Part shown: piece after piece, positions 47,258 to 54,868 of the stretch | Layout: every line of letters begins with the position of its first letter | How positions within the stretch are numbered: the stretch's first letter is position 1 | Translations under genes and position numbers: made by a program | Assembly: GCF_026802175.1 (NCBI RefSeq) | Contig: NZ_CP113797.1 | Span: forward strand, 1,279,026 to 1,343,025 | Origin: Thermocoleostomius sinensis A174 | GTDB taxonomy: Bacteria; Cyanobacteriota; Cyanobacteriia; Elainellales; Elainellaceae | Direction: 5' to 3' | Length of the DNA: 64,000 nt | Notes under the pieces: generated by a model | Database searches by the model: none | What the model was told of the DNA's origin: nothing | The model's input: only the letters and a program-made list of their open reading frames with translations

Positions 47258-50200
47258 CTATACTTCGATCGCTCCTAAGTTACACAAAGTTGCTTTTTGT
47301 GCAGTGGTTAACCCGGTGATTCCTGTAATATTCATATGTTCATAGGGGCGGTTATCTCGTAGTGTTTTGATGAGGTCTCCTGTCTGTGAGTCCCAAAGTC
47401 TAATCATGCCATCTTGCCCGCTACTTGCAATCATTGACTGATTTTCTAAAAACGTTGCAGTATAAATCTCACCTATGTGCCCGACCATAGTTACGAGGCA
47501 TTCACCAGATTGAACATCCCATAACGATACGGTTTTACCGTCGCTGCCACTTACCAACTGTTGTCCGTCTGCGCTAAACCGTACAGACCAAATTCGGCCA
47601 TCGCAGGTTAAAATCCGTAAACATTGACCCGATTGCACATCCCATAGGCGAATAGTTCGATCGTGACACCCACTTGCAAGCATCTGACCATCTGGGCTGA
47701 AAGCAATTGACCAAACTGCGCTGTCATGACCTTCCAAGATTTTGAAACATTTGCCAGATGGAATATGCCACAACCGTACAACTTTATCATCGCCGCCGCT
47801 TGCTAAAATGTGTGATATTGCGCCAGCACCGGCAGCGCGATCGGGATAAACACCACAAGCCACCGACCAGATTTGCCCTGGATGCTGAAGCGTTTCCAGA
47901 CACTGCCCTGTTTCAACATCCCAAATTCTCACGGTTTGATCACTACAGCCGCTTGCTAACAGTCGATCGTCTATGCTGAATGCCACGGACATAACTAGGT
48001 TAGTGTGACCATACAAAACATGTAAGGGCTTACCGGTGTCCACGTGCCAAAGTCGAACTGTTTGATCGCTGCTTGCAGTGGCCAGTATGCGGCCATCTTG
48101 ACTAAAAGCTGTACTCCAAATCCAGCTTTTGTGTCCAGTTATTGTTTTAATGCATTCACCCGATTGTATATCCCAGAGTTTCAATTTCTTGTCGTTTCCC
48201 CCACTTGCTAAAAGTTGCTGCTTAGAGTTGAAAGCAATCGTTCTAATTCCATCGTCATATCCTGTTAGGGTTCTTACCGATTGACCAGTTCTGACATTCC
48301 AGAGCTTGATCATGCTGTCATTACTACCGCTAATTAGCGTTTCCTTATCCGGATGGAATGCGACTGTCCAAACTCCGTTTGGATGTCCTCGTAAAGTGTT
48401 AAGACATTGTCCAGAAGCAATATCCCAAATTCTGACAGTTGTGTCTTGTCCGCCACTGGCTAGGGTTTGAGCATCGGAACTCAGGGCAAGAGAGGTAACT
48501 GTACTAGAATGTCCTTGCAGGTGACGGATACAAGTTGCTGTAGCAATGTCCCAAATTCTGACAACAGAATCACTACTGCTGCTAATCAACCAGCGTCCAT
48601 CGGGTGTGAAGATAACCGATCGAACCCACCCTTGATTTTGAAATTCCTTTAAAGTCTGCCCAGTTTGCACGTCCCACAGGCGAATGGTTCGATCGTCTCC
48701 CCCGGCTCCACTAGCCACCCAGCGACCATCCAGACTAAATTTCGCATACCAGACCGTGCTTGTATGACCCTCCAAAACACGTAAACACTCACCAGTTTTG
48801 GCGTTCCAAAGTCGCACAGTGCAATCAGCGCTGCTACTGACTAGCGTTTGCCCATCTGGACTAAAGCATCCATACCAGACCCAATTGGTATGTCCAGATA
48901 GCGTGCGTAGGCATTGTCCAGTAGTCAAATTCCACAACTTAACAGTGTGATCAAAACTGCTGCTTGCTAGAAGCTGTCCGTTAGGACTAAAGGAAACCGA
49001 AGTGACCCAACTGTGATGTCCCACAAGGGTCAAGTGCTTCTGTCCATCAGTGGTTCGCCAAACTCGCACCAAGCCGTCCGAGTTTCCGGCAGCAAAAAAC
49101 TGTCCATCTGGACTAAATGCCAGCCCTAAGGTAGCACTCAGCGCATCAGCAAAAACCGACTTCGAGAAATCTGCATTAGCAAAATTGACCTGATGCAGGG
49201 TTTTATCAATTAAGTAGGCTTGCCAAATACACAGAGAAGAACAGTCTAGCCCACTTAAATCAGCGTTCAACTCACCCAGCAAATTCAAAACATTACCGCC
49301 AACATATCCAGGTTGCAGAGGGGCTTCCTGTCTGAGCATCACCAACAAGTCTTTGAACTGCTGCTCGATCGCCTGCATACTTCCTAACTTCATTGTTAAT
49401 TCTGTGAGAATTGGTTGAATGATCAGGCGAATTTGCGCTTGCCGAATATAATCCTTACTTTGCGCCTTGAGCAAGGCATAGTGCCTCAGTAGAGTTTGTT
49501 GTCGTTTAACGACCTCGTTGCATACGCCTGCAATAAGTTGATAAGTTATGTACTCCATGACAACCGGCTGAAGCGAGAGTTGCTTTGTTGTACGTTCGAC
49601 TAAGCAGCGGCGGATTAGCGATTGCACTGCATCCAGCAGTTGTCGTCGCACCAGATCAGAAACAATATCCGCTTCCAACTCAGCTAGTGTAACTGGCTCA
49701 CGATTGATTGCCAGCCAATACATTACTTGTTGTTCTGCTAGCGATAAGCGCTCAAATTGACGTTTGAGTAAATCATTGATATCACCAAATTGAAATTCGC
49801 CTTGTCGCAAATAGGGCAGCAATTCAGCAATGTCACCCTCTGCAAGTTCTTGGATTCCAGATGCAACAATTCGTAGTGCTAATGGATTCCCTGCATAATG
49901 CTCAAAAACTTCCTGCAATTCGCGATCGTCTGCACCATAACATCCTTTTGACTTGAAAATTTCCCAACCTTCGGACTGTGTTAGTCCTTTCAATTGGAGC
50001 GATCGAACGGGTGCATCAATACCTTCTAGAAACGATACATCTTTGGGTTTTTCACGACTGGTTAACAATACGCAACTCTGGTGTGATGACTCACTCATGC
50101 GTTGTAATAGACGACCATAGCCTTCATATTCTGAATTGTAGTGACCCGCGCAAGTGCCACTTTGTAAAGTAGATTCAAAATTATCTAACAGAACAAGACA

Positions 50201-50809
50201 GCGATGCTGATTCAGGTATTGAATTAGACGAGAAAGTCGCCCTTCTAAAGTATCAGGAAGATGGATTTCCTGTTGATTGGATAGGAACTGAATTAGTTCT
50301 TGGAGTAATTCCTCAATCGGCGGTGCATTCAGCAACGATCGCCAAATCACATACTCAAATTCACCCTGTATCTGTTCCGCCAACTTCACGGCTAGGGTGG
50401 TTTTGCCCATGCCGCCCATGCCTAAAATCACGATTAAGCGACAGCGATCGACCGTGATCCACTGGGTTAATGTCGCCAATTCATCCATGCGACCGTAAAA
50501 CGTTGACACTTCGGGCGCTTCTCCCCAATCCTGCTGTGTTGCGGGGCGATCGACGTTAGTTACTGGCATCGCAGGTGGAGGTGAGGATTCCTCCAGCGGG
50601 GCAGCAACATCTTTCCAGTGCAGCAATAGCCTTGTGCAAAGCTCCTCAAAAATGGCGCGATCGACCGGTTTACCGTTGAGGAAATTACTAACCGTCGCTA
50701 AAGCAACTCCCAACTCTTCAGACAGTTCGCGTTGAGTATGAAATCTAGCCCGAACCGCTGCTTTTACGGTTCCAATGTGTACCTGATCCACTCTAAGCGA
50801 TCGTGACAT
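47258..50809 (-). CDS. HTH-NB-ARC-WD40 STAND protein with 14 WD repeats
   Basis: Residues about 12-70 form a helix-turn-helix-like N-terminus (RELSEELGVALATVSNFLNG). The NB-ARC-type NTPase follows: P-loop GMGGMGKTTLA near residue 135, Walker B CLVLLDNFE, sensor CVLLTSREKP and the ARC part with GNPLALRIVASG. After a helical linker there are 14 WD40 repeats (about 560-1165), enough for two seven-bladed propellers, ending in LW or IW each time. STAND proteins are signal-dependent switches; some are antiviral or apoptosis-like effectors, others transcription regulators. The HTH and lack of a nuclease or protease effector favour regulation, but this is inference. Confidence 0.9.
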   Translation of the reverse strand: MSRSLRVDQVHIGTVKAAVRARFHTQRELSEELGVALATVSNFLNGKPVDRAIFEELCTRLLLHWKDVAAPLEESSPPPAMPVTNVDRPATQQDWGEAPEVSTFYGRMDELATLTQWITVDRCRLIVILGMGGMGKTTLAVKLAEQIQGEFEYVIWRSLLNAPPIEELLQELIQFLSNQQEIHLPDTLEGRLSRLIQYLNQHRCLVLLDNFESTLQSGTCAGHYNSEYEGYGRLLQRMSESSHQSCVLLTSREKPKDVSFLEGIDAPVRSLQLKGLTQSEGWEIFKSKGCYGADDRELQEVFEHYAGNPLALRIVASGIQELAEGDIAELLPYLRQGEFQFGDINDLLKRQFERLSLAEQQVMYWLAINREPVTLAELEADIVSDLVRRQLLDAVQSLIRRCLVERTTKQLSLQPVVMEYITYQLIAGVCNEVVKRQQTLLRHYALLKAQSKDYIRQAQIRLIIQPILTELTMKLGSMQAIEQQFKDLLVMLRQEAPLQPGYVGGNVLNLLGELNADLSGLDCSSLCIWQAYLIDKTLHQVNFANADFSKSVFADALSATLGLAFSPDGQFFAAGNSDGLVRVWRTTDGQKHLTLVGHHSWVTSVSFSPNGQLLASSSFDHTVKLWNLTTGQCLRTLSGHTNWVWYGCFSPDGQTLVSSSADCTVRLWNAKTGECLRVLEGHTSTVWYAKFSLDGRWVASGAGGDDRTIRLWDVQTGQTLKEFQNQGWVRSVIFTPDGRWLISSSSDSVVRIWDIATATCIRHLQGHSSTVTSLALSSDAQTLASGGQDTTVRIWDIASGQCLNTLRGHPNGVWTVAFHPDKETLISGSNDSMIKLWNVRTGQSVRTLTGYDDGIRTIAFNSKQQLLASGGNDKKLKLWDIQSGECIKTITGHKSWIWSTAFSQDGRILATASSDQTVRLWHVDTGKPLHVLYGHTNLVMSVAFSIDDRLLASGCSDQTVRIWDVETGQCLETLQHPGQIWSVACGVYPDRAAGAGAISHILASGGDDKVVRLWHIPSGKCFKILEGHDSAVWSIAFSPDGQMLASGCHDRTIRLWDVQSGQCLRILTCDGRIWSVRFSADGQQLVSGSDGKTVSLWDVQSGECLVTMVGHIGEIYTATFLENQSMIASSGQDGMIRLWDSQTGDLIKTLRDNRPYEHMNITGITGLTTAQKATLCNLGAIEV

Positions 50810-52936: not shown

Positions 52937-54103
52937 ATGGCACAAGTGTTACTTGCAACTACACCTGAAGCGCGTCAACAAATCTATCAATTTCGCTATC
53001 GTGTTTACGTCGAGGAGATGAACAAAAATCCTCGCGGAGCCAATCATGCTGAACGCATTCTCAAAGATGAATTAGACGATACAGCTACCTTGCTTTACCT
53101 GACGATCGATGGCGACATTGCGGCCACCCTACGACGTAATAGATTAAGTGAAACTCCCCTACCTAACTTGATCCACCGCGCTTTAGAAATCGAGCGGTTT
53201 ATGGTGGCTTTTCCAAAGGATGTGCTTTCTTTTAGCTCTCGGTTTATGGTGGCTCCTAAGTATCGAAACTCTTCGATAGCGGGGGCGATCGTTGTTGAAG
53301 CGTATAAACTAGCCCGCGAACAAGGCATTCTGTTCGATTTTTCCCATGCATCACCTTGGCTGGTTCCGTTCTATGAAAATTTGGGGTTTCGTCGCTACGG
53401 CGATAATTTTCTGGATGTAGATGCTGGATTACAAATTCCATTAGTGTTGCTGCTAGACGATATTGCCCATTTGCAAGCGGTGCATTCTCCTATGTATCGA
53501 TCGGCTCGTCGAGTAACCACACCAACCGTTACACGAGATTGGTTTCTTGAAGCCTTTCCTAAAGCTGCTGATTTCTTCAACACCTATCAACACTCGCCCG
53601 AAGAAGTTTGGGAATTTTGGTTGCACAAACAACAAAATCATTCTGATCAACCAGTGTCTATTTTTCAATCTCTCGATCGAGAGCAACTCAAAAAACTTTT
53701 GAGACAAGGATTATTTCATTCGGTGAAAGCAGGTGAGAACATCGTGCGGATTGGGGATATCCATAGCTCAGTGTTCGTTGTGTTGTCGGGTATCGTTCAA
53801 CGCCAGAGCACCATTCATTCTAACACCACCACTACATCAGTACTTAATCCTCATCATTTCTTTGGAGAAGTCACCCTGTTTGCTTCGCTGCCATCCCCAG
53901 AACAAGTCACAGCCGTCACCGATGTAGAACTGTTTGTGCTGCCCAAACAAGCCGCTATGCGAGCGATCAAGACCATGCCCGACGCTATGTGTCAGTTCTT
54001 TTTGCAGGTCTCTCAATCGCTGTGCGAACGGTATGTTGCCAAAGATGTGACTTACGAGCGATCGACCGATTTATCTTCATCCAACATCAATCAAGCTGCT
54101 TAA
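52937..54103 (+). CDS. FeeM-like N-acyltransferase fused to a cNMP-binding-type domain
   Basis: Residues 1-165 are a GNAT domain of the type found in N-acyl amino acid synthases and autoinducer synthases: QIYQFRYRVYVEEMNKNPRG, RNRLSETPLPNLI, FSSRFMVAPKYRNSSIAGAI, FVPFYENLGFRRYG-like. A helical linker follows. Residues about 250-365 have a cyclic-nucleotide-binding fold (VKAGENIVRIGDIHSSVFVV, HHFFGEVTLFASL), but the arginine normally found after FGE...P is replaced (PSPEQVTAV), so cAMP binding is doubtful. The next gene (78 bp on) encodes a haem-oxygenase-like protein; the pair may form an acylated product and then oxidise it. Confidence 0.8.
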   Translation: MAQVLLATTPEARQQIYQFRYRVYVEEMNKNPRGANHAERILKDELDDTATLLYLTIDGDIAATLRRNRLSETPLPNLIHRALEIERFMVAFPKDVLSFSSRFMVAPKYRNSSIAGAIVVEAYKLAREQGILFDFSHASPWLVPFYENLGFRRYGDNFLDVDAGLQIPLVLLLDDIAHLQAVHSPMYRSARRVTTPTVTRDWFLEAFPKAADFFNTYQHSPEEVWEFWLHKQQNHSDQPVSIFQSLDREQLKKLLRQGLFHSVKAGENIVRIGDIHSSVFVVLSGIVQRQSTIHSNTTTTSVLNPHHFFGEVTLFASLPSPEQVTAVTDVELFVLPKQAAMRAIKTMPDAMCQFFLQVSQSLCERYVAKDVTYERSTDLSSSNINQAA

Positions 54104-54127
54104 CCTTAGCCCCTTCTACCTCCCACC

Positions 54128-54151
54128 CATCTACTCATCTACTCATCTACT
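54128..54151. repeat. 8-bp tandem repeat CATCTACT x3
   Basis: Three adjacent units between the two genes of the pair; the last one is exact as well. Confidence 0.7.
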
Positions 54152-54181
54152 TATCCCACCCCATTCATAAGGAGAAAACTT

Positions 54182-54868
54182 GTGCAGGAAATTTTGCAGG
54201 TCATTCAAAAAGCCAAAACAATTTTTCGCCTCAAACTAGAACAAGTCGAGCAATCTGGCGGCTTAACCCTAGAACAATATGTTCGCTATTTGTCGATGCA
54301 ATATCATCTGACGCGCAATGTCCAACGGCACTTCTTTACGATCGCAGGACATCCTTTGCTAGCTCATAAAGGCAAACTACGCGAATTTCTTGTCGCCTTC
54401 GGATTAGAAGAAGAGATGCACTACAAAATTGCCTGTAAAGATCTAGAAAATCTAGGGTATGACGTTTTACCCGTGCCATTGGACGTTAAATTGTGGTGGA
54501 CGTATTTTGATTCAGTGATTCACTCGCGTCCGCTGGTGCGGCTGGGTGCAACTTGCATTTTGGAAAACCTTGGCGCAGGTGGTGGCGATGTCGTCAAGCG
54601 ACTGATGAGCAACGCCCCATTTATCAACGAACGCACGTCTCGCTTTGTGCAAATTCACCTACACGAAGAGTTGCCCCACGGGGATTGGATTGTACAAACC
54701 CTGAAAGATGTGCCCCTAGACGTAGCCAATATTCGTGACCTGCGCGAAGGAGCCGAAACGGGCGCGATTCTTTATCTACGGATGGTAAATTGGGCATTGG
54801 GAACGGATTACCTGACCAACTGCATCCTGGAAGAACCCACCAATGCGCTTCCTTCTCAGGTGGCTTAA
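54182..54868 (+). CDS. Haem-oxygenase-like putative di-iron enzyme (HDO type)
   Basis: GTG start with AAGGAG seven bases upstream. The 228 residues form an all-helical TenA/haem-oxygenase-like fold. Candidate metal ligands follow the HDO pattern: E76-x3-H80 in GLEEEMHYK, E129 in ILENLGAG, and H159/E162-x3-H166 in IHLHEELPHGDW. Proteins of this fold with such ligands use O2 and two irons for oxidative chemistry on fatty acids or amino acids (UndA, SznF and relatives). Substrate unknown. Its pairing with a FeeM-like acyltransferase suggests an N-acyl amino acid or fatty-acyl substrate, which is inference. Confidence 0.75.
   Translation: MQEILQVIQKAKTIFRLKLEQVEQSGGLTLEQYVRYLSMQYHLTRNVQRHFFTIAGHPLLAHKGKLREFLVAFGLEEEMHYKIACKDLENLGYDVLPVPLDVKLWWTYFDSVIHSRPLVRLGATCILENLGAGGGDVVKRLMSNAPFINERTSRFVQIHLHEELPHGDWIVQTLKDVPLDVANIRDLREGAETGAILYLRMVNWALGTDYLTNCILEEPTNALPSQVA

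Follow-up and report, generated by a model that had tools for sequence, protein, structure and literature searches.

The window analysed here is a stretch of 64,000 nt from Thermocoleostomius sinensis A174 (NZ_CP113797.1, forward strand), and all coordinates given below are positions in it. It carries two genes on a common strand, separated by 78 bp, the second of which starts with a GTG codon preceded, 7 nt upstream, by the sequence AAGGAG. Both open reading frames were found where a preliminary description of this DNA had placed them, and a comparison of the GC content of the pair (46.4%) with that of the window (47.4%) gives no compositional sign either way. The features of the locus, with the evidence for each, are the following:

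52937..54103, + strand: gene 1, a FeeM-type GNAT acyltransferase with a C-terminal cNMP-fold (CNB) domain, 388 aa (ORF, Pfam, fold)
52937..53491, + strand: acyltransferase domain of gene 1, residues 1-185 (PF21926 and PF13444 above cut-off; FeeM fold; conservation)
53654..54040, + strand: CNB domain of gene 1, residues 240-368 (PF00027; many CNB structures matched)
53861..53905, + strand: altered phosphate-binding cassette FGEVTLFASLPSPEQ, with Ser320 in place of the canonical Arg (alignment)
54169..54174, + strand: Shine-Dalgarno sequence AAGGAG of gene 2 (sequence)
54182..54868, + strand: gene 2, a predicted HO-like dimetal oxidase/oxygenase (HDO), 228 aa (ORF, fold model, predicted ligands)
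54410..54421, + strand: predicted ligands E77xxH80, core helix alpha1 (alignments; spacing of AetD D76xxH79)
54563..54565, + strand: predicted ligand E128, core helix alpha2 (invariant in five orthologues and all distant relatives)
54656..54679, + strand: predicted ligands H159xxxE163xxH166, core helix alpha3 (alignments; spacing of AetD H172xxxE176xxH179)

Gene 2 is present in 5 of the 36 genomes of the host family, and in all five it is adjoined by gene 1 on the same strand and in the same order, with a gap of 18-87 bp; no HDO without an acyltransferase neighbour was found among these 36 genomes, and a sixth one carries only a fragment of gene 1 that runs off the end of a contig. The co-occurrence corresponds to a Fisher p of 1.6e-5 over the 36 genomes if their relatedness is ignored, and the trees of the two genes share one unrooted topology. 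A pattern-based scan covering 84,980 species returned four loci besides the window, each with both genes (Phormidium tenue FACHB-886, Cyanobacteria bacterium RM1_2_2, Elainella saxicola E1 and filamentous cyanobacterium CCP2); these are identical to the four relatives from the family search, so that the survey becomes broader while the number of cases stays the same. The 386 genomes examined across the phylum contain only weak relatives of gene 2, and several of them carry full-length relatives of gene 1 with no HDO within the examined flanks. Plasmid records gave no HDO match and two weak acyltransferase matches. The pair is rare, patchily distributed and tightly linked. The preliminary description had proposed a survey of co-occurrence in cyanobacteria and considered that rare co-occurrence would speak against a joint role: co-occurrence turned out to be strict, so that this objection fails, although the pair itself is limited to a single cyanobacterial family. 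The adjacency seen in five related genomes shows linkage, not the handing over of a substrate.

Co-inheritance of this kind could also result from hitch-hiking of two functionally unconnected genes on a mobile segment. The scattered presence of the pair within genera would fit such a history, as would a transposase-like ORF found upstream of it in one genome (L038), but the adjacency has survived orthologue divergence to about 45-72% identity as well as differing surroundings, and hitch-hiking seems highly improbable. No conserved neighbours other than the two genes themselves were seen around the pair, nor was a shared promoter motif found when the 250 bp preceding each of the five pairs were compared. 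A lipid signal had been put forward as a possible product; as no conserved receptor, regulator or exporter lies next to the pair, nothing specific speaks for a signalling role. In the window, an NB-ARC-WD40 gene (47258-50809) is divergent from the pair, and NB-ARC genes with a different N-terminal part are also found upstream of it at L041 and L049, making three genomes in total. We did not adopt these genes as part of the unit, given that their N-termini differ and that a WD40 gene also lies close to L002, a locus encoding one of the longer HDO-like proteins described below.

The N-terminal domain of gene 1 matches the FeeM family (PF21926) with 34.6 bits (cut-off 27) over residues 15-172, and PF13444 likewise exceeds its cut-off. 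PF21926 is matched at E 0.1 or better by 11 of 13 relatives, and R20, D44, D47, R102, P140, Y146, G150 and R152 are invariant across all 13; a PF21926 family search over the phylum missed gene 1 itself, and its counts, which are lower bounds, were left out of the analysis. The solved fold closest to the structure model (pLDDT 84) is FeeM itself (2g0b; Z 18.0, rmsd 2.3 over 168 residues), followed by a GNAT acetyltransferase (Z 17.7) and by AHL synthases (17.1 and below); FeeM is the best match, yet it has close competitors, ranks 2-5 being within 1.3 Z of it. FeeM was retrieved by the fold comparison but was absent from the matches of the acyltransferase domain in a profile-PDB search. The FeeM-like acyltransferase of the preliminary description is nevertheless borne out by PF21926 and by FeeM as the top solved fold, and gene 1 is probably an enzyme that attaches a fatty acid to an amino group. 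FeeM-like GNATs may take amines other than amino acids, which counts against a firm assignment as an N-acyl amino acid synthase.

An identity of gene 1 as an AHL synthase (LuxI) was considered and rejected. Such enzymes have a Glu three residues before a conserved Arg and a Trp in an N-terminal motif, and both are missing here: the place of the Glu is taken by F, V, I, H or Y in 13 of 13 relatives, none of which has a Trp within residues 20-32.

The C-terminal domain scores 56.1 bits against cNMP_binding (PF00027) over residues 261-345 of gene 1. That its key arginine is missing had been recognised before, and the alignment agrees, with Ser320 in its place. All five HDO-linked proteins have Ser at this cassette position, inside a conserved S(P/S)E(Q/R) motif, whereas Arg is found in all eight other FeeM-CNB relatives, which come from picocyanobacteria-like and deeper lineages of the phylum; the phosphate-binding-cassette Arg by which nucleotide-binding CNB domains are recognised is therefore lacking from every HDO-linked protein. 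The two groups also differ in the relative conservation of their domains: with the comparisons being non-independent pairs from a single branch of the tree, the CNB is more conserved than the acyltransferase domain in nearly all comparisons among Arg-bearing lineages (for instance 67 vs 60%, 50 vs 39%), the exception being one near-identical pair, and always less conserved in the HDO-linked lineage (41-58 vs 52-61%). As far as sequences can tell, the loss of the Arg and the faster divergence of the CNB fit a loss of cyclic-nucleotide control in the HDO-linked lineage.

Fusions that keep the Arg (L005-L008, L009-L012) occur in small-genome cyanobacteria and in one deep lineage of the phylum, and could possibly constitute a family of cyclic-nucleotide-regulated N-acyltransferases without an HDO neighbour; two of them (L005 and L006) have a chloride-channel-like gene immediately upstream. 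In the literature, which was covered in part, a cNMP domain joined to an N-acyl amino acid or AHL synthase was not found.

A CNB domain and a GNAT are likewise joined in a single chain in mycobacterial Pat, a cAMP-regulated acetyltransferase, and gene 1 could thus be a CNB-controlled protein or metabolite acetyltransferase of that type, with the HDO acting in a separate process. Ordinary GNAT structures do come near the FeeM score, but the match to Pat (NF058543) is weak and restricted to the CNB of gene 1, and the domain order of mycobacterial Pat is the reverse of that seen here. As the FeeM family scores above its cut-off, the canonical Arg of the CNB is lost and adjacency to the HDO is strict, we regard a Pat-like role as quite unlikely and retain the FeeM-type acyltransferase for gene 1.

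Gene 2 scores 15.6 bits against PF14518, below the cut-off of 28.9, and its best orthologue matches that family at E 3.9e-6; because the HO fold and the ligand motif are both present, the low score is taken as sequence divergence. Its AlphaFold model (pLDDT 80.7) shows a bundle of the HO-like type made up of helices only, for which a second-look structural alignment gave matches to 3dde (Z 17.2), TenA proteins (up to 16.9), CADD and HrmI (15.7) and UndA (14.5). Fold prediction hence upholds the haem-oxygenase-like protein proposed earlier and places it in the HDO superfamily; the similar Z of CADD, TenA and haem oxygenase means that the fold names the superfamily of gene 2 and not its chemistry. 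Searched against the sequences of solved structures, gene 2 gave chance matches only and no solved HDO.

The HDO ligand motif is E-H-E-H-(D/E)-H on three core helices (PMC11363339), and alignment assigns a predicted ligand of gene 2 to each of its six places. The likely 3-His/3-carboxylate set, as judged from sequence conservation, is E77, H80, E128, H159, E163 and H166, which would hold a dimetal centre. Across five orthologues E76, E77, H80, E128, H159, E162, E163 and H166 are invariant; three distant relatives keep E76, E77, H80, E128, H159 and H166, with position 163 always Asp or Glu and position 162 variable, and on their account E163 is preferred over E162. The Glu of helix alpha1 is E77 or E76, and E77 corresponds to the spacing in AetD, whose ligands are D76xxH79, E140 and H172xxxE176xxH179 (PMC11611611). 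The preliminary description had listed E76xxxH80, E129 and E162xxxH166: an HDO-type ligand set was rightly recognised, as were H80 and H166, but residue 129 is an Asn, the true Glu being E128, H159 was overlooked, and E162 is a less likely ligand than E163.

The SznF-type subgroup (3H/4C) has a seventh ligand, an additional Glu on auxiliary helix alpha2; in gene 2 there is no Glu near residues 49-53 (RHFFT), the corresponding place as located by sequence spacing only. In AetD the residue at this place is hydrophobic, a trait linked in that work to substrate-triggered enzymes (PMC11611611). Two HDO-like proteins of ~295 aa with an N-terminal extension (L002:1291-2184 and L003:1255-2136) bear a Glu where this ligand could sit. 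In another cyanobacterium (L056:7726-10109) a protein distantly related to gene 2 (233 aa, PF14518 above cut-off) is encoded after a 255-aa ORF that matches no family and before a JmjC/cupin-like gene, a cluster that is possibly another small oxidative pathway.

With CADD and TenA both among its closest folds, gene 2 might instead be a self-sacrificing CADD-type p-aminobenzoate synthase, which has the same fold and ligand set, or a metal-free TenA-like protein. Such assignments deserve very little credence: gene 2 keeps all six predicted metal ligands, has no match at E 1 or better to TIGR04305 (CADD pABA synthases) and is linked to an acyltransferase, and the genome already has a canonical CADD-family HDO (L075, G000:C1:904791-905309; TIGR04305 290.8 bits, PF14518 about 121 bits), likely a p-aminobenzoate synthase. 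An unsupervised alignment of gene 2 with L075 lines up all six ligands.

Taking together the structure of the two genes, their predicted folds and ligand residues, and the fact that they are adjacent and co-inherited, we incline slightly towards a two-gene, co-inherited biosynthetic unit in which gene 1 N-acylates an amine, its CNB does not read nucleotides and gene 2 oxidises the product. Like FeeM, gene 1 would acylate an amino acid or a comparable amine with a fatty acyl group, whose donor is probably acyl-ACP; the CNB of gene 1, no longer reading a cyclic nucleotide, would be a scaffold or bind another ligand. The acylated product would be bound by gene 2, probably via a carboxylate on Fe1, and be desaturated, oxygenated or cleaved with O2. 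The substrates of characterised HDOs are mostly fatty or amino acids, and several of these enzymes bind substrate on Fe1; an N-acyl amino acid contains both parts and is therefore a natural candidate substrate, one not reported for characterised HDOs in the literature consulted. More tentatively, the HDO may take an N-acyl amino acid and make an undescribed class of cyanobacterial lipids (e.g. an enamide, a dehydroamino acid or an N-oxygenated acyl amine), the CNB acting as a sensor of a non-nucleotide ligand, a scheme that we hold possible rather than probable. The pair suggests a small-molecule pathway that has yet to be described.

HDOs with a validated function number only about a dozen, and since the unit here is minimal, with just two genes, and its class of substrate can be predicted, co-expression offers a direct test of what this HDO acts on. 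If the proposed unit is real, a different kind of tailoring oxidase would be added to N-acyl amino acid pathways, and a CNB domain would have changed its role inside one protein family.

Several known systems resemble parts of this arrangement. FeeM (PDB 2G0B), an N-acyl amino acid synthase, has PF21926 and the best-matching fold in common with gene 1, which is only 14% identical to it and is, unlike FeeM, fused to a CNB and paired with an HDO. The cyanobacterial HDO AetD resembles gene 2 in its HO fold and in the spacing of DxxH, E and HxxxExxH (PMC11611611), but acts on bromotryptophan and has no detectable sequence match to gene 2.

The closest precedent for the pairing is that of TyzA, TyzC and TyzB, in which a FeeM-fold synthase likewise lies beside a product-modifying oxidase. 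TyzA of Mycobacterium tuberculosis was called an N-acyl amino acid synthase on the same structural grounds as those used here for gene 1 and then shown to be one, and reconstitution showed that acylation comes first, the O2-dependent oxidase TyzC acting on the product of the adjoining synthase (PMC10404671). The main rival to our scheme reverses this order, with the HDO modifying a fatty acid (free or as acyl-ACP) or an amino acid before the acyltransferase conjugates it. UndA, one of the fold matches to gene 2, uses free fatty acids and AetD a free amino acid, as this order would have it; the Tyz precedent and the position of the acyltransferase gene, which comes first in 5 of 5 genomes, argue weakly against it, and we consider it unlikely. 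For acylation followed by oxidation, a further parallel is provided by the NasY clusters for stieleriacines and related N-acyl tyrosines, where a synthase adjoins a proposed desaturase (PMC12479983). Both systems differ from the present pair in their partners. TyzC belongs to the flavin enzymes of the nitroreductase superfamily, and cyclisation of the product falls to a ThiF homologue; no counterpart of either was seen beside gene 1 and gene 2. The NasY partners are also a nitroreductase and ThiF, and PMC12479983 makes no mention of an oxygenase or of a cyclic nucleotide domain. Operons of a synthase and an oxidase are thus already known, with flavin oxidases; in the present pair, whose synthase has a changed CNB domain, it is the HDO in the predicted role of the oxidase that is new.
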